From a virus, in IMG/VR virus record IMGVR_UViG_3300045970_000701, positions 1-22,935 of that record: a stretch of DNA of 22,935 nucleotides. The stretch is one strand, 5' to 3'. Shown piece by piece: positions 6,801 through 22,935 of the stretch. Numbering within the stretch: the stretch's first letter is position 1; every line of letters begins with the position of its first letter. The translations under genes and the position numbers were made by a program. The notes beneath the pieces are model-generated. The model did no database searches and was not told the origin of the DNA. It saw only the letters and a program-made list of their open reading frames with translations.

Positions 6801-7097
6801 ATGTCAACATCAACACAAAGTCAAGTATTTAGAGATTTAACATATAGTAATGATATTAAAGATCAAATTATTAATAGCGGTGGAACTATAGTTTTCATGA
6901 GGGATAATGTAATAATGGCATCTGAAATATCAGAATCACAATATAGGGCGTTATTAAATAGCCCATATATTGAGAAATTGGATGTTTTACCATTAAAAAG
7001 ATATGGTAATGTTGGAATACAATACACACAAAATACTAATATCGCTGCTGCTCAAGGTAATGCAGAAATATATGCCACAAAAAACTTAATTAAATAA
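6801..7097 (+). CDS. small virion protein, stand-alone I9-like domain
   Basis: 98 residues. Apart from a short tail (GNVGIQYTQNTNIAAAQG) the protein is a single domain aligned with residues 18-82 of the preceding Ig protein: shared DLTYS, GGT, ASxISExxY, P-x-I and LPLKRYG/LALKQYG positions. The I9-like fold is my inference from the pattern (strand, helix, strand with a hydrophobic N-x-I-x-AS segment). No catalytic residues. It sits 14 nt after the Ig-domain gene and its TAA overlaps the ATG of the tail-tube-like gene. A reasonable guess is that it occupies the same virion site as the Ig protein's N domain, giving a bare and an Ig-bearing version. Confidence 0.6.
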   Translation: MSTSTQSQVFRDLTYSNDIKDQIINSGGTIVFMRDNVIMASEISESQYRALLNSPYIEKLDVLPLKRYGNVGIQYTQNTNIAAAQGNAEIYATKNLIK

Positions 7098-7738
7098 TGA
7101 GAATAAGTTCACAAAATAATCAATTTTTATTTCAGTTTCCATCAGACTTTTTAGCAAAAGAAGTTGATGATAGATTAAGAAGATATATGGATAAAAATTG
7201 GATTCCTTATCAAGATCCAATGGCATATATAAATTCTACAATTAAAGAAATTGTTTTTCCTGCTATTTCTTATGAAGGTTCTGAACAAACTCATATGAAA
7301 GGTAAAAAAATAGAATATAAACCATCTATAAATATCTATGATACGTATACGAATTCATTAGATATAACATTAAGAAGTGTTGATTCACATACAAACTATT
7401 TTATGTTACAACAAATTTTTGCAGAATACTATAATAATACAAGAAAATATTATTTACCTTGGCTTAATCTATTTATACTTGATAAAGATGGCGATTTTTT
7501 ATATTCAGTTATTTTTAGAGCACCATTATTAAAATCTTTATCTGAACAAAGATTATCATATCAAAGTATGGATGTTGCTGAACAAACTTTTTCAATTACA
7601 TTTAAATTCAACTTTATGGATGTTTATTGGGAATTGAGTGATAATCCTGAATATAAAAAAGATAATATATTTTACTCACAAACTTGGGATCATTCAGGTG
7701 ATGTTTTACCTACACAAAGACCTCAAAATGAGTATTAA
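7097..7738 (+). CDS. tail-tube-like structural protein
   Basis: 213 residues. A two-layer beta pattern with a central helix is visible: IKEIVFPAISYEGSEQT, then the KPSINIYDTYTNSLDITLRSVDSHTNYFMLQQIF strand-helix unit, a LFILDKDGDFLYSVIF hairpin, and a final SMDVAEQTFSITFKFNFMDVYW strand. This order (strand, D-x-D-G hairpin, 'siSe..lsY.s.d..e.tfsitF.f...d') is that of phage tail-tube/baseplate-tube proteins of the gp19/gp54 superfamily. Starts on the A of the preceding TAA and closes the structural block. Could instead be a tube-fold baseplate or tail-terminator component. Confidence 0.6.
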   Translation: MRISSQNNQFLFQFPSDFLAKEVDDRLRRYMDKNWIPYQDPMAYINSTIKEIVFPAISYEGSEQTHMKGKKIEYKPSINIYDTYTNSLDITLRSVDSHTNYFMLQQIFAEYYNNTRKYYLPWLNLFILDKDGDFLYSVIFRAPLLKSLSEQRLSYQSMDVAEQTFSITFKFNFMDVYWELSDNPEYKKDNIFYSQTWDHSGDVLPTQRPQNEY

Positions 7739-9535: not shown

Positions 9536-10042
9536 TTATTCTTCTTCTTGTTTTACAATTTGTGAAACTGTTAAATCTAACATAGTTTCTCTACCAAAAA
9601 TTAAAACACTAACTTTAACTTTTTGTTTTTCCAAATCTAATTTATCAATTGTGCCAACAAATGAATTAAAAGGTCCATCAATTATTTTAATTTTATCTTT
9701 CAAATGTAGAGTTTCTTCAGTTTCTTTCTTTTCTTTTCGACCTAAAATTCCTTCAATTTCTTTAGAAGTTAAAGGTTGTTTTAATATAGAGGTCACACCA
9801 TTAATATGTTTAACATTAGCTTCAACATCACTTATTGATTCACATTCAACAAAGATATATCCAGGAAATGACTGTTTTTCAACAGAAATTTTCTTTCCAC
9901 GTCTTAATTGTACAGCTTTCTGCGAAGGAACTAACATTTGAGAAATAACACTTTCTGTATTACTCTCTTTTAATTTAATCTCTATCGCTTCTTTCATCTT
10001 TTTTTCCTTACCATTCATCACTTTGATTACATACCATTTCAT
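9536..10042 (-). CDS. nusG: phage-encoded NusG transcription elongation factor
   Basis: 168 residues, near full length for bacterial NusG. NGN domain at 1-105 begins KWYVIKVMNGKE and contains VPSQKAVQLRRGKK and the conserved SFPGYIFVE (residues 58-66) and INGVTSIL segments. KOW domain at 114-164 has the signature KIKIIDGPFNSFVGTIDKLD and IFGRETMLDLTVSQIV. NusG binds RNA polymerase across the cleft and through KOW contacts Rho or ribosomal S10. The order and residues resemble Bacteroidota NusG rather than an RfaH-like paralogue. Promoter-like TATCTTTG lies about 43 nt upstream on the minus strand. After the TAA the same frame stays open for 19 more codons with coding-like composition. Confidence 0.9.
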   Translation of the reverse strand: MKWYVIKVMNGKEKKMKEAIEIKLKESNTESVISQMLVPSQKAVQLRRGKKISVEKQSFPGYIFVECESISDVEANVKHINGVTSILKQPLTSKEIEGILGRKEKKETEETLHLKDKIKIIDGPFNSFVGTIDKLDLEKQKVKVSVLIFGRETMLDLTVSQIVKQEEE

Positions 10043-14735: not shown

Positions 14736-15320
14736 ATGGCAAAACTTTTCTTCAGGTATTCAACAATGAATGCTGGCAAATCAATCGACTTAATCAAAAC
14801 AAATTTTAACTATTTTGAAAACGATAGAAAAACTTTATGCTTCACATCTGCAAAAGATAATAGATATGGTGAAGGTAAAATAACATCAAGAATTGGACTA
14901 TCAGTTGATGCAATTTCTGTTTTTGATGATACAAATATATTTGATGTTGTTTATAAATATATTATTAATAATGAACAAATATATTGTGTTTTTGTAGATG
15001 AATCGCAATTTTTAAATAAAAATCAGGTTTTCCAACTTGCAGATATTGTAGATGGGTTAGATATTCCAGTAATTTGTTATGGACTTAGAACAGATTTTGT
15101 TATGGAAATGTTCGAAGGATCTAAATATTTAATGGCTATTGCTGACAGTATAGAAGAAATTAAGACTATTTGCTTTGAGTGTAAAACTAAAAAGGCAATA
15201 ATAAATGCAAGAATAACTGATGGTAAAATAGTTACAGAAGGTGATCAAGTTATGATTGGTGGAAATGATACTTATAAACCTCTTTGTAGAAAGTGTTATA
15301 AAAAGTTAAAGAATGTTTAA
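14736..15320 (+). CDS. tdk: thymidine kinase, type II
   Basis: 194 residues, normal length for the TK1-like family that phosphorylates thymidine with ATP to feed dTTP synthesis. Seen: P-loop STMNAGKS at 9-16, Walker B/catalytic FVDESQF at 86-92, the YGLRTDF lasso start at 115-121, and a structural zinc site of four Cys (C146, C149, C184, C187). The substrate-backbone loop near residue 175-182 (IGGNDTYKPLC) is the usual IGG-x(n)-Y. Nucleotide-salvage enzymes are standard for large phages and fit the NMP-kinase-like gene at 2624. Its stop lies 16 nt before the most likely start of the histidine kinase. Confidence 0.93.
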   Translation: MAKLFFRYSTMNAGKSIDLIKTNFNYFENDRKTLCFTSAKDNRYGEGKITSRIGLSVDAISVFDDTNIFDVVYKYIINNEQIYCVFVDESQFLNKNQVFQLADIVDGLDIPVICYGLRTDFVMEMFEGSKYLMAIADSIEEIKTICFECKTKKAIINARITDGKIVTEGDQVMIGGNDTYKPLCRKCYKKLKNV

Positions 15321-15322
15321 TT

Positions 15323-15330
15323 TATATATA
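15323..15330 (+). promoter_or_regulatory. candidate TATATA promoter box
   Basis: TATATATAGGTTTAATG, box ending 6 nt before the ATG at 15337; argues for 15337 rather than 15313 as start of the kinase gene. Confidence 0.35.
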
Positions 15331-15336
15331 GGTTTA

Positions 15337-15522
15337 ATGGAAATGATACATCATAAAAAAGCAGAGCATATAAAAGAACTAGTCAATCAATTAATTGAGG
15401 CTAGTAAAGAATTAGCATTTCAAAATGAAGAGAAAGAAAAACGTGCAAATGAATTAATTGTTGCCAATGAAGAATTAGCTTATCAGAATGAAGAGAAGAG
15501 TAAGAGAGCAGATGAATTATAA
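15337..15522 (+). pseudogene. N-terminal fragment of the hybrid histidine kinase (frameshifted)
   Basis: Reads MEMIHHKKAEHIKELVNQL, then one and a half copies of the 21-residue coiled-coil repeat (KELAFQNEEKEKRANELIVAN, EELAYQNEEKSKRADEL) and stops at TAA 15520-15522. The stop arises because the second repeat lacks 11 nt compared with every other copy; without the deletion the frame would run straight into the kinase. An in-frame ATG at 15313 overlaps tdk by 8 nt and seems less likely. As it stands this fragment would be a short coiled coil, or a leader whose translation feeds the downstream frame through ATGs at 15488 and 15512. Confidence 0.7.
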
Positions 15523-15898
15523 AGAATTAGCTTATCAGAATGAGGAAAAAGGACATAGGGCAGATGAATTAATTATTGCCAATAAAGAATTATCTTATCA
15601 GAATGAAGAGAAGAGTAAGAGAGCAGATGAATTAATTATTGCCAATGAAGAATTAGCTTATCAGAATGAAGAGAAGAGTAAGAGAGCAGATGAATTAATT
15701 ATTGCTAATAAAGAATTAGCTTATCAGAATGAGGAAAAAGGACATAGGGCAGATGAATTAATTATTGCCAATAAAGAATTAGCTTATCAGAATGAGGAAA
15801 AAGGACATAGGGCAGATGAATTAATTATTGCTAATAAAGAATTAGCTTATCAGAATGAGGAAAAAGGACATAGGGCAGATGAATTAATTATTGCCAAT
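15406..15898 (+). repeat. 63-bp tandem repeat array encoding 21-residue coiled-coil units
   Basis: Eight units beginning at 15406, 15469, 15521, 15584, 15647, 15710, 15773 and 15836, with a degenerate ninth at 15899. Each codes for K/E-ELAYQNEEK-xx-RADELIIAN, three heptads. Two DNA variants alternate: one with GGACATAGG (protein GHR) and one with AGTAAGAGA (SKR). Units 5-7 are identical except for one silent C/T. Unit 2 is 52 bp (11-nt deletion). Such ANKELAFQNEEKEKRAAEL arrays are known in bacterial sensor kinases and cyclases. Confidence 0.95.
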
Positions 15899-17743
15899 AA
15901 AGAATTGATAGTTCAAAGTAAAGAAAAAGTAAAATTGGCAGAAGAACTTATAAATTCTCAGAAAAATGCGGAAATTGCTAATGAGTTCAATAAAAATTTA
16001 TTACAAACTATCCCATTTTATATGGATATTATAGATAAAAATGGTACAATATTATTTTCAAACAAATTATTAAAAGATAACGTTGGTGATGTTATTGGTA
16101 AAAAATGTTGGAATGTTCATCGTGATGATAAGAAACAATGTGTAGATTGTCCATTATATTCAGAAATTGAAATTGGTAAAACAAAAAAGATAGAATCAAG
16201 TGGAGTTTATGGCGGAAAAATTTTTGAAATAAGTCACACAGGAATAATGTTTAATGGAGAAAAATCTATATTAGAAATATTTCAAGATATTACAGATAGA
16301 AAGCAATCAGAAAATAGATTAGCAAGAGCAGAAATAATTTCTAAAACAGGTAATTGGGAACTTTATATTGATAATCTAACAATGATAGCATCAGATGGTG
16401 CAAAAGAAATATATGGTATAAAAGATAAATTAGAAGAACTTAAATATTTAGAAATAAAAAAATATGTATTATCTGAATATAGACCAATGATGGATGATGC
16501 ATTAAAAAATTTAATTGATTATAATAAACCTTATAATGTTGAGTATAAAATATTAACAGGCGACAATGAAATTAAAAATATTCATTCAATTGCAAATTAT
16601 GATAATATAAATAAAATTGTATTTGGAGTACTTCAAGATGTTACAATTCAAAAGAAAAATGAGGAAGCATTAGAAAAAAGCAATGCTATAAAATCTATTT
16701 TCTTATCAAATATTTCACATGAATTAAGAACTCCTATGACTGCAATTATTGGCTATTCAGATTTAATATTATCAAATAATAAAGATAAAGATAGAGATAG
16801 GTTTTTAAAATCTATTAATTCAAACGCTAAACATTTAGATGAATTGTTAAATAATATATTAGATTATTCAAAAATAGAGAGTGATACATTAGATATTTTA
16901 TATGAGGATTTTTCAATCTTAGATTTATTTGAAGAACTAAGTGATATATTTGAAGATGAGAATTATAAAAAAAATTTAGATTTTGTTAAATTAGAATTTA
17001 GTAAAAAAAATTATAAAATAACATCTGATTATTTAAGATTAAAACAAGTATTATATAATATAATTAGTAATTCTATTAAATTTACTGAAAATGGATATAT
17101 TAAAGTTTCATTTGTTTCAGATAAAAACTTTGTAACATTTAAAATAGAAGATACAGGAATTGGAATTCAAAAAGATAAATTACCATTAGTTTTTGATAGA
17201 TTTTGGCAATGTGATAGCACCAGTAAGAAAAAATATAAAGGAACAGGTCTTGGATTATCTATATCCAAAAGTATTGTTGAAATTTTAAATGGACAGATAT
17301 GGCTTGAATCAGAATTAAATGTAGGAACAACATTTTATGTTAAAATACCAATAGAAGAACAAAAATTAAAAATTATTAAAATTGAACCAGATTTTCCAGG
17401 CAAAACTATTTTAGTAATAGATGATGTACCAATAACATATTCTATATTAGGTATTTATTTAAATTCTTTACATATTAATATAATATCTTCTACTGGTGGT
17501 AAAGAATCAATTGAAATTTATAAAAAACAAAAAGAAAAAATTGATCTAATAATATTAGATTTAAATTTATTTGATATGAGTAGTTTTGAATTAATAAAAA
17601 CTATGAAAGAAATATGTGATTGTAAAATTATTTCCAAATCAGGTATTGAAAATCAAAAAAATGAATTGGTTGATTATCACTTGAAAAAACCAATAAATAA
17701 AAATATATTAGTTTCAATATTTAATGAAATATGGCAAAAGTAG
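15488..17743 (+). CDS. hybrid histidine kinase (coiled coil-PAS-PAS-HisKA-HATPase-REC)
   Basis: Main frame, up to 751 residues; the first 10 come from an out-of-frame read of the deleted repeat unit, and ATG 15512 is an alternative start that overlaps the upstream stop. Order: repeats to ~140; PAS with a cysteine cluster (KKCWNVHRDDKKQCVDCPL, 205-223); second PAS ~281-388; HisKA with SNISHELRTPM (His411); HATPase with N-box IISNSIKF (~525-532), DTGIGI (555-560), FDRFW and GTGLGLSI (585-592); receiver domain 638-750 with DD645-646, phospho-acceptor Asp691 and Lys733. All catalytic residues look intact, so kinase, ATP binding and receiver could work; there is no transmembrane segment, hence a cytosolic sensor. 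A hybrid kinase on a phage is unusual and may be host-derived. Overlaps the next gene by 13 nt. Confidence 0.85.
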   Translation: MKRRVREQMNYKELAYQNEEKGHRADELIIANKELSYQNEEKSKRADELIIANEELAYQNEEKSKRADELIIANKELAYQNEEKGHRADELIIANKELAYQNEEKGHRADELIIANKELAYQNEEKGHRADELIIANKELIVQSKEKVKLAEELINSQKNAEIANEFNKNLLQTIPFYMDIIDKNGTILFSNKLLKDNVGDVIGKKCWNVHRDDKKQCVDCPLYSEIEIGKTKKIESSGVYGGKIFEISHTGIMFNGEKSILEIFQDITDRKQSENRLARAEIISKTGNWELYIDNLTMIASDGAKEIYGIKDKLEELKYLEIKKYVLSEYRPMMDDALKNLIDYNKPYNVEYKILTGDNEIKNIHSIANYDNINKIVFGVLQDVTIQKKNEEALEKSNAIKSIFLSNISHELRTPMTAIIGYSDLILSNNKDKDRDRFLKSINSNAKHLDELLNNILDYSKIESDTLDILYEDFSILDLFEELSDIFEDENYKKNLDFVKLEFSKKNYKITSDYLRLKQVLYNIISNSIKFTENGYIKVSFVSDKNFVTFKIEDTGIGIQKDKLPLVFDRFWQCDSTSKKKYKGTGLGLSISKSIVEILNGQIWLESELNVGTTFYVKIPIEEQKLKIIKIEPDFPGKTILVIDDVPITYSILGIYLNSLHINIISSTGGKESIEIYKKQKEKIDLIILDLNLFDMSSFELIKTMKEICDCKIISKSGIENQKNELVDYHLKKPINKNILVSIFNEIWQK

Positions 17744-19141: not shown

Positions 19142-19156
19142 ATAATGTGTATTTTT

Positions 19157-19585: not shown

Positions 19586-20784
19586 TAACAAGATTTATAA
19601 AATTTATTACAGAAAAAAACATACCTATCAAGTTAACCCTACCTGATGATATTTATCAAATCAAAAAAGAGTTTGATAAAGCAGGTAAAAAACTATATGT
19701 TGTAGGCGGAGCTGTTAGAGACTTCTATCAAAAAGTAAATCCACATGATATTGACTTAGTTACAGATGCTCAACCTGAAGAATCTAAAAAAATTCTGAAA
19801 GGTAAATTTAATGTGTCAGACGAACAAGGAAAGAATTTTGGTGTATTAAGAATTTATACCAAAGATGAACCTTTAGGCTATGAACTTGCAACATTCAGAA
19901 AAGACATTTCAAAAGGTCGTGACAATAAAGGTGATGCGCCAAAAGTAGAAATTGGAAAACACATTACAATTGAAGATGATGTTAAAAGACGTGATTTAAC
20001 TCAAAATGCTCTTTTTTATGATATTGATAAAGAAGAAATTGTAGATTTGGTTGGTGGTATAGAAGATATTGATAGAAATGTCATATCTGCTGTTGGGGAG
20101 GCTTCTGAGAGGTTCTTAGAGGATAGACTAAGGATTTTAAGGACATTTAGATTCGCTTCAAGGAATCACTCTGAAATAAGTAAGAATACTATTGATGCTA
20201 TTATGAAAGATAAGAGATTGAGAAATATTTCACCTATTGATGATGTATCACAAGAGAGAATTGTTGAAGAATTTCAAAAATCTGTCGATTGGGCATTAGA
20301 TCATAATAAAATTGAAGCGTTACAATATTATTTAGAACTACTTGATAAGTATGGAATGTTTGAAGAAATGTTTCCAGAGTTGGATATTAATATCGAAGGT
20401 ATAGATACATTTAATTTAGGTGTAATATTTACTTTGTTATTTAGAGATAATACAATTGAAACATTAAAAATAAAATTAAAAAAATGTAAGTTTCCAAATA
20501 TACTTGCTGATACTGTATGCTTTTTATTAAGATTAAAAAATGAAATTAAAAATGTAAATAATATACCAGCTCTTTATAAAGAAAAAGTTAGAATACATCT
20601 TGTCAATGATACAATAGAAGAATTTGCTGATTTGTATGATTTTAATGATAATTATTTACAAGCATTTTTGAATTTTCAACCTAAAATTGATACTGCAAAA
20701 ATTATAGCTCTTGGCTTCAAAGGACCAGAAATTAGAGCTGAAGTTATAAAGAAAGAAATTGAAGAGTTTAAGAAATTATTATGA
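19582..20784 (+). CDS. cca: CCA-adding enzyme / tRNA nucleotidyltransferase, class II, with capsid-targeting-like N terminus
   Basis: 400 residues, full length for the class II family that adds or repairs the 3' CCA of tRNA. Motif A: YVVGGAVRDF at 39-48 with catalytic carboxylates Asp56 and Asp58 in HDIDLVTD. Motif C/D region: RRDLTQNALFYD (136-147) and EDRLRILRTFRFASR (180-194), whose Arg residues set nucleotide choice. Body and tail domain follow. In front lies MITRFIKFITE-KN, almost a copy of the T4 IPI leader (MKTYQEFITE), so cleavage after Glu11 would leave an intact catalytic core starting before the first helix. Starts by ATGA overlap and ends by ATGA overlap in the peptide-bearing cluster. 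No tRNA gene is in the window. Poly(A) polymerase activity is an alternative. Confidence 0.9.
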   Translation: MITRFIKFITEKNIPIKLTLPDDIYQIKKEFDKAGKKLYVVGGAVRDFYQKVNPHDIDLVTDAQPEESKKILKGKFNVSDEQGKNFGVLRIYTKDEPLGYELATFRKDISKGRDNKGDAPKVEIGKHITIEDDVKRRDLTQNALFYDIDKEEIVDLVGGIEDIDRNVISAVGEASERFLEDRLRILRTFRFASRNHSEISKNTIDAIMKDKRLRNISPIDDVSQERIVEEFQKSVDWALDHNKIEALQYYLELLDKYGMFEEMFPELDINIEGIDTFNLGVIFTLLFRDNTIETLKIKLKKCKFPNILADTVCFLLRLKNEIKNVNNIPALYKEKVRIHLVNDTIEEFADLYDFNDNYLQAFLNFQPKIDTAKIIALGFKGPEIRAEVIKKEIEEFKKLL

Positions 20785-21101
20785 TAACTAATTTTAAATT
20801 ATTTGAAGAAATTGATAGAAGAGATAGAGATATTAACTATAAAAAAGGTGATTATATATTTTGGAATAATGCGGTTCAGACAATTTCTGAGGTTGGTCTA
20901 CAAAGCTGGATTGGTTGGCGTCCTGATCCTAGTAGAATAGGTAAAAAGAACATTAGATTTTTTCTTTATAATGAAATAACAAAAAAGACTGATGCTGTGA
21001 CATTAGCTGAAGATGAGGTTGTATTACCAACAGATGAACAATTGATAGACTTTAAAAATACATTAGACGCAATAAAAAAGTTCAAAAAATATAACATATG
21101 A
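20781..21101 (+). CDS. unknown small protein with capsid-targeting-like N terminus
   Basis: 106 residues. Leader MITNFKLFE-EIDRR, then KKGDYIFWNNAVQTISEVGL ... WIGWRPDPSRIGKKNIRFFLYNEI ... EDEVVLPTDEQL and a helical end finishing KKFKKYNI. The middle looks like a small beta barrel with two Trp residues; no motif recognised. First 28 bases are identical to those of the next gene. ATGA overlaps both sides. Confidence 0.6.
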   Translation: MITNFKLFEEIDRRDRDINYKKGDYIFWNNAVQTISEVGLQSWIGWRPDPSRIGKKNIRFFLYNEITKKTDAVTLAEDEVVLPTDEQLIDFKNTLDAIKKFKKYNI

Positions 21102-21427
21102 TAACTAATTTTAAATTATTTGAAGGTACACAAGATTGGCAAATATGGGATATAAAAGCTTATATTGACACTAAATATCCAGCAAAAGGAGGAATAGGAA
21201 TAAGTGTAAGCAATGAAACAAATTTAAATGTTAATTTGAATTATATGATGGGTCACTATTATTCTAAAGATATAAGAGATTATAAAGAAAAAACTAAAGA
21301 AACTTATCAAGACATTAAAGATTATTTGATAAAAATGGGATTTAAACTGAAAGAAGAACAATATGGAGGTGGTACAATAACATATGTTTGGGATTTGCCA
21401 GGCACAATACAAAAATTTAACATATGA
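21098..21427 (+). CDS. unknown small protein with capsid-targeting-like N terminus
   Basis: 109 residues. Leader MITNFKLFE-GTQDW, cleavage expected after Glu9. The rest is a mixed alpha/beta domain (IKAYIDTKYPAKGGIGISVSN, LNVNLNYMMGHYY, a helix TYQDIKDYLIKMGFKLKE, and a final TITYVWDLPG strand), ending QKFNI. Not similar to its neighbour beyond the leader, which is what swapped effector cassettes would look like. Confidence 0.6.
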   Translation: MITNFKLFEGTQDWQIWDIKAYIDTKYPAKGGIGISVSNETNLNVNLNYMMGHYYSKDIRDYKEKTKETYQDIKDYLIKMGFKLKEEQYGGGTITYVWDLPGTIQKFNI

Positions 21428-22268: not shown

Positions 22269-22275
22269 TTTAACA

Positions 22276-22365
22276 ATGGTGAAAGGGAGCAGCTTCCACA
22301 CACCAATTAGTAACCTAGTTACAGTTTGTCAGGACTTCAACCTGAATCTCCCAATTATTCACCAT
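22276..22365 (+). ncRNA. candidate structured RNA (four-stem element)
   Basis: Outer stem ATGGTGAA / TTCACCAT (22276-22283 with 22358-22365, 8 bp perfect), second stem GGGAG / CTCCC (22285-22289 with 22348-22352), then two internal hairpins GTAAC-CTA-GTTAC (22310-22322) and TCAGG-ACTTCAA-CCTGA (22329-22345). Its base composition is clearly richer in G and C than anything around it and no ORF of note covers it. Nested stems of this order suggest a folded RNA; strand is assumed plus because a strong plus-strand terminator follows at 22454-22500, but the stems also form on the minus strand. It does not fit a tRNA cloverleaf. Confidence 0.5.
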
Positions 22366-22453
22366 CTAACAAAAGATAATCTAACTAATACTTTTCAATG
22401 GTCGCGACTCCATTTACTACATACTTATTAAATTCTTTTGTGTATTTTAAAAC

Positions 22454-22500
22454 AAATAACCTAGCAAAAACTTCTTCAAGCTTTGCTAGGTTATTTTTTA
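22454..22500 (+). terminator. strong rho-independent terminator
   Basis: 15-bp perfect stem AAATAACCTAGCAAA / TTTGCTAGGTTATTT (22454-22468 with 22482-22496), 13-nt loop, then T-rich tail. It would end transcripts that include the structured element. Confidence 0.75.
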
Positions 22501-22600
22501 TATTTAGGTTTAGTTTTTCGATCATTTATATTTTCTCCAACTAAAAGTATATATATTTAATTTAAAATGGTTTTTGGAAAAAATGACTTTTTGTATTTAA

Positions 22601-22606
22601 TATATA
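22601..22606 (+). promoter_or_regulatory. candidate TATATA promoter box
   Basis: TTTAATATATACTTA, box ending 19 nt before the ATG at 22626; shares 14 bases with the minus-strand box at 14639. Confidence 0.4.
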
Positions 22607-22625
22607 CTTAAAAAGTAAATACAAA

Positions 22626-22781
22626 ATGAAGAAAAAAGACAAAACTTTCACAATGAGAATACCTTCAGACATACATAAATATTTGGAAGAATATTCAAAT
22701 AAAAATTATACATCAATGTCTAATGTTATAGTGCAGCTTATTATAAAGTTGAAAAAAGAATCAGAAAGCAATGAAAAATGA
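22626..22781 (+). CDS. small ribbon-helix-helix (Arc/CopG-like) protein
   Basis: 51 residues: a short basic arm KKKDKTF, strand TMRIPSD, helix IHKYLEEYSNK, turn and second helix MSNVIVQLIIKLKKESE. This is the full RHH unit of Arc/CopG/MetJ-type repressors, which bind DNA as dimers through the paired strands. Too short for the usual ORF cut-offs but well supported by composition and by its 11-nt overlap with the endonuclease start. Likely controls its own operon, perhaps keeping the endonuclease low. Confidence 0.65.
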   Translation: MKKKDKTFTMRIPSDIHKYLEEYSNKNYTSMSNVIVQLIIKLKKESESNEK

Positions 22782-22935
22782 TTACTTTTTTATTTATGAA
22801 ACAACAAATTTAGTTAATAATAAAAAGTATCGTGGAATACATAAAACTAAAAATATTAATGATAATTATATTGGAAGTGGTGTGTCGTTTGAGTTTGCAA
22901 TTAAAAAATATGGAAAAGAAAATTTTAAAAGAGAA
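22771..22935 (+). CDS. GIY-YIG endonuclease, N-terminal part (3' end outside window)
   Basis: Starts MKNDYFFIYETTNLV inside the end of the RHH gene (ATG 22771). The GIY-YIG elements are F-I-Y (residues 7-9) and Y-R-G (about 20-22), then IHKT and the family's typical NYIGSGVSFEFAIKKYGKENFKRE, as in SegA-G-like and homing endonucleases of phages that nick or cut DNA. The first G of GIY and the I of YIG are replaced (FIY, YRG), which is seen in family members. 55 codons are visible and the frame is open at the right edge, so the catalytic Glu and DNA-binding part cannot be checked. Confidence 0.8.
   Translation, partial: MKNDYFFIYETTNLVNNKKYRGIHKTKNINDNYIGSGVSFEFAIKKYGKENFKRE

Follow-up and report, generated by a model that had tools for sequence, protein, structure and literature searches.

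Candidates for structured non-coding RNAs have come from comparative genomics, for example a set of 104 motifs (PMC2864571). The element described here was recognised in the same way and resembles such candidates in being intergenic, in having stems that covary, and in carrying a conserved unpaired strand. It lies in an IMG/VR record fragment of 22,935 bases, the whole of which was analysed and is called the window below. An initial annotation of the sequence had proposed a phage non-coding RNA or a riboswitch-like leader at this site. The element is a real, conserved structured RNA of a huge-phage clade and apparently one that has not been described before; the initial annotation was right in part, in that this is a phage structured RNA with compensating changes in homologues and no Rfam family to which it belongs.

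We place the window in the huge-phage clade because of matches to the protein encoded at 7097-7738, which among GenBank phages matches only uncultured phage genomes of 462-735 kb and has copies 49-89% identical in IMG/VR contigs. We call this protein tail-tube-like, a guess from its position and size. Elsewhere, the window encodes a NusG-like protein (9536-10042, minus strand; Pfam PF02357, E 4.5e-16) and a phage histidine kinase with a response-regulator domain (15313-17743), the N-terminal end of which carries an array of ~21-residue repeats (ADELIIANKELAYQNEEKGHR) spanning two overlapping ORFs. Two consecutive genes at 20781-21427 each open with the peptide MITNFKLFE, and a similar peptide, ITKFKLFE, begins the 146-aa ORF at 19145. 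The MITNFKLFE start resembles a capsid-targeting N-terminus of T4-like phages.

A three-way junction kept by compensatory change

Read on the minus strand, which is the strand of the RNA (see below), the core common to the members runs from 22352 to 22285 and consists of helices P2, P3, and P4 and a joining strand, arranged as a three-way junction. In the window, P2 has 5 bp, formed by GGGAG (22348-22352) with CUCCC (22285-22289), and it has 7 bp in the relatives (5′ strand 22346-22352). P3 follows the 5′ strand of P2 directly and is a 5-bp hairpin (UCAGG/CCUGA, 22329-22345), paired in 100% of its alignment cells, with a 7-nt loop UUGAAGU and a family loop consensus of YURANGU. P4 (22304-22328; here CAA...GUAAC-UAG-GUUAC...UUG) varies in length and sequence. 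A hairpin forms in seven of the eight linkers, in six of the eight it outdoes about 95% of shuffled linkers, and P4 is missing or broken in G004; in G006, its closing C-G pair has become U-A. The joining strand GUGUGUGGAAGCU(G) at 22290-22303, outside the conserved helices, leads back into P2, and the 13 nt of GUGUGUGGAAGCU are near-invariant, with at most one substitution per homologue. Around this core, an outer stem, P1 (22276-22365), pairs AUGGUGAA (22365-22358) with UUCACCAU (22283-22276) in three of the eight sequences only (the window, G003, and G013), with one pair being G.U on the minus strand in G003.

On the plus strand, these are the nested stems and two hairpins that the initial annotation had drawn at 22276-22365, namely an outer stem of ATGGTGAA (22276-22283) with TTCACCAT (22358-22365), an inner stem of GGGAG (22285-22289) with CTCCC (22348-22352), and internal hairpins GTAAC/GTTAC and CAGG/CCTG. 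All are present in the letters. As a plus-strand sequence, the 90-nt element has a folding energy of -22.6 kcal/mol, whereas its shuffled versions average -15.3 (z -2.45) and 6 of 200 of them do equally well, which is modest evidence by itself; the whole 232-nt stretch that includes a neighboring 15-bp hairpin has a z-score of -4.67. The minus-strand element of the window is unremarkable (z -1.03). What decisively places the element beyond chance is comparison: seven other phage sequences retain the core of three stems, with changes that compensate each other.

Two-sided changes across the homologues affect five of the seven P2 pairs and one pair of P3. For seven sequences, 97.6% of stem cells are paired and six pairs, in 9 cells, have changed on both sides, counts that partly reflect shared ancestry because only eight related sequences are available. 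The covariation score is 0.488, compared with 0.277 ± 0.043 in shuffles, and on the measures of pairing and two-sided change 0 to 2 of 500 shuffles scored equally high; alignments slid out of register were 36-57% paired. The secondary structure is kept by compensatory change, as expected of a structured phage non-coding RNA. The compensating changes on which the initial annotation had staked its proposal are found in the inner stem and the hairpins, and the outer stem is present in only three of eight sequences.

The eight distinct sequences are the window and seven homologues, all in related huge-phage contigs, and were retrieved with DNA searches, covariance models, and patterns. Searching the DNA of relatives located the element in G001/G002, G003, and G004/G005. 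A covariance model of the minus strand added G012 and G006, together with four identical copies in further contigs, among them the 235-kb L111, and a second model added G013, a true member that degenerate patterns had missed, so that further members are likely to exist. Every relative that has a tail protein of 70% or higher identity and a contig extending to the locus carries the element, as a single copy at one site per genome; the closest relative (G007, 89%) has the upstream genes in common, and its contig stops before the locus. It is absent from the available parts of the genomes of relatives at ~50% identity and, at convincing scores, from the 462-735 kb genomes. Only weak scores were obtained from more distant huge phages (LR756500-LR756504 and LR745206), and those inspected have no core. 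Five pattern matches in bacterial genomes are due to chance, with none scoring with the covariance model, and the pattern matches L042, L046, and L047 are unrelated DNA. A half-pattern for P3 retrieved mostly unrelated DNA, its sole true yield being the four identical new copies, and the exact 20-mer GGGAGCAGCTTCCACACACC retrieved nothing from viral contigs. For the 294-aa protein encoded beside the element, a pattern scan of viral contigs gave no relatives; the protein was later located in two records, in both of them far from the element.

Genetic setting and proposed mode of action

In the window and its relatives, the positions 10-40 nt ahead of ORF starts are enriched in the motif T[T/A]TATATA, with 57 occurrences in three 10-nt bins against about 4 expected; it is likely a phage promoter motif of the clade. 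One such promoter-like box, TATATATA, is at 22548-22555 on the minus strand, upstream of the unit. The motif precedes P2 by 77-266 nt on the minus strand in seven of the eight members, and the eighth, G002, has a near variant, TTAATATATAG.

Between the box and the element is the 15-bp hairpin AUAACCUAG...CUAGGUUAU (22456-22494, minus strand), which has a T-rich tail and had been taken for the terminator of the element. Hairpins ending in AACCTA/TAGGTT occupy this place in six of the eight members, being missing in G003 and G006, and in ~175 kb of sequence from the relatives AACCTA..TAGGTT occurs only beside the element. In all six members, the hairpin is more stable as minus-strand RNA, and the folds contain 8 G.U pairs on the minus strand against 1 on the plus strand. 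The terminator assignment is therefore withdrawn: the hairpin is upstream on the RNA strand, and its restriction to the side of the element and its minus-strand pairing make it part of the module on that strand. On the plus strand, it may terminate transcripts of the upstream genes. With its U-rich tail, it could also terminate transcription ahead of the element, which counts against the reading favoured below.

The surroundings were described initially as gene-free, and 22269-22625 does lack a long ORF, but it contains a 46-aa ORF on the minus strand (22525-22385; MIEKLNLNIKNNL...) with no Pfam match. The corresponding ORFs of the relatives range from 13 to ~80 aa and have unrelated C-termini; judged from these sequences, the ORF is probably not a conserved protein. 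Every P3 loop includes UAA or UGA, which prompted us to consider a C-terminal peptide ending in GDSG-stop, spelled by P2 and P3; it was rejected. P2 and P3 are not coding, since the frame is closed five to six codons upstream in the window, G013, G004, and L111.

The element keeps a conserved gene setting: a PF04308 RNase-H-like gene is found upstream on the strand of the element in all seven homologues, usually 100-400 nt away, with an extra gene intervening in G013. The end of the window falls within a GIY-YIG endonuclease gene, before any RNase-H gene would be reached. The RNase-H-like gene also occurs with no element following it, in LR756501, LR745206, LR756502, and the ~50% relatives. 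The endonuclease gene in the window (22771-22935, cut by the contig end) is the start of a SegE-like homing endonuclease, and before it comes a 51-aa ORF (22626-22781). G003 keeps 16 residues from the start of this ORF exactly, just before the RNase-H gene, and has lost the remainder. In G006 (L060), a TnpB-like gene with palindromic ends is inserted between the RNase-H-like gene and the element, ~250-1420 nt upstream. Mobile genes seem to be drawn to the site next to the element. G006 is the sole member with an adjoining TnpB-like gene, and the start of that gene, not its end, faces the element; the overlap with the 3′ end of tnpB that defines an omega RNA or TnpB guide RNA was not found.

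On the downstream side, a co-directed gene begins 135-190 nt away in G004, L111, G002, and G012, and in G002 and G012 it lies beyond a terminator-like hairpin. Such hairpins follow the element in G003, G004, G002, and G012, and in weaker form in L111, with none clear in the window, G013, or G006. In these last three, no co-directed gene is present; the neighbor is a convergent gene, with its 3′ end toward the element. These arrangements bear on a possible role in cis, in which the minus-strand RNA would be a riboswitch, attenuator, or antitermination leader controlling either the next gene or the preceding AACCTA terminator-like hairpin. The four co-directed genes, most of them with a terminator-like hairpin ahead, fit this role, as do the junction, which looks aptamer-like with its three helices and invariant joining strand, and the NusG-like protein encoded by the phage. 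However, the three members that lack a co-directed gene downstream, and so have no target, speak against a cis role. Moreover, the upstream hairpin is missing in two members, and by eye the downstream gene of G002 has an apparent promoter of its own after the element. We consider control in cis unlikely, including the riboswitch leader of the initial annotation, since not every member of the family sits in a 5′ leader ahead of a co-directed gene.

We instead favour, as the probable explanation of the sequence evidence, a minus-strand gene for a small non-coding RNA, with the promoter-like box upstream, whose product would act in trans through the surface of its junction. The transcript would be ~170-300 nt long, start near the TATATATA box, and contain first the AACCUA hairpin (in six of eight members), followed by the three-way junction. 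A putative partner, which could be a phage or host protein or RNA, would bind the junction at a surface made up of the invariant strand GUGUGUGGAAGCU and the P3 loop YURANGU. The RNA may then serve as a scaffold, decoy, or regulator, without control of the downstream gene. We infer the action in trans only from the lack of a cis target. No phage antisense target for the joining strand was found, as its complement occurs once per phage genome, within the element itself. The joining strand could also pair with the 16S rRNA decoding region, but two of its three natural substitutions would break this pairing.

With low probability, the element could be the RNA component of a phage ribonucleoprotein, or else a ribozyme, which would make it a new class of compact functional RNA, built on the three-way junction and its invariant 13-nt strand, and a core gene of the clade. 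In the specific form of a small self-cleaving ribozyme, with the P3 loop and joining strand as the candidate catalytic core, this idea is very unlikely. Phages are known to carry ribozymes, and the fold is compact (about 57-72 nt), with two near-invariant unpaired blocks and no coding context. Yet no Rfam ribozyme matches it, no conserved dinucleotide stands out as a cleavage site, and the family consists of only eight sequences, with one copy per genome.

The strand of the RNA

Of 82 pairs counted in seven members, 76 are Watson-Crick, 6 are G.U, and none is A.C when read on the minus strand; the same six wobbles become A.C mismatches on the plus strand. Inspection of G013 adds one further minus-strand G.U. 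We assign the RNA to the minus strand because all six non-Watson-Crick pairs are G.U there and A.C on the plus strand. Folding z-scores across the members (mean -1.5 on the minus strand and -2.0 on the plus strand) do not discriminate between the strands, so the assignment rests on the wobble pairs and the upstream promoter-like box, both of which contradict the strand first proposed.

With the pairing on the minus strand, it is highly improbable that the element acts as a plus-strand RNA, either as a 3′ untranslated element or as a terminator structure of the upstream gene, as the initial annotation implied. The element does start 8 nt after the 294-aa gene, a strong terminator-like hairpin follows about 90 nt after it, and the plus-strand z-score of the window is -2.45. 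Against this, every wobble pair belongs to the opposite strand, and the plus-strand upstream gene varies among members, being a polyA polymerase in G006, a 135-aa gene in G003, and a gene on the opposite strand in G002 and G004. No promoter box is found on the plus strand in the window, G003, G013, L111, or G006. We give least credence of all to a palindromic DNA site for recombination, packaging, or mobile-element insertion, for although mobile genes adjoin the element (the GIY-YIG endonuclease in the window and the TnpB-like gene in G006), tolerance of G.T on just one of the strands would be unexplained in a double-stranded site, the stem letters vary yet stay paired, and symmetry is lacking in the 13-nt invariant strand.

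Comparison with described RNAs

A scan of the window and two homologues against 4227 Rfam families (release 15) gave sub-threshold matches only and none at the gathering threshold, in agreement with the first impression that the element matches no RNA family, and no description of it was found in the literature. ARAGORN found no tRNA or tmRNA in the window, and the best tRNA score in a homologue was 14.8 bits against a threshold of 29. The element is like a tRNA or tRNA-like structure in having a 7-bp stem beside a 5-bp stem with a 7-nt loop, and YURANGU resembles an anticodon or T loop. It differs in having no D arm and no CCA end, in the position of P3 directly after the 5′ strand of P2, and in the T-loop U-A pair, which is not kept (A, G, or U stands at loop position 5).

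The best sub-threshold Rfam match is the DUF2815 RNA motif (RF03084), at 21.5 bits (E 0.026-0.046) on the G003 homologue, with which it has the string UUGAAGUCC and one hairpin in common. The gathering score of that family is 41.2, the element lacks 6 nt of the 13-nt hairpin loop of the model, and the match has no enclosing P2 and stops before the invariant joining strand. On both score and hairpin architecture, the element falls outside the DUF2815 family, and we treat the match as chance.

Non-coding RNAs of huge phages are little charted, and for this element the strand, fold, promoter-like box, and invariant nucleotides are now defined. As a single-copy element, it is a ready target for asking what huge phages use RNA for, and its covariance alignment is directly usable for annotating other huge-phage genomes. 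Set beside the structured RNA candidates from comparative genomics, whose general features it shares, the element differs in lying outside the described Rfam families and in being limited to one clade of huge phages.
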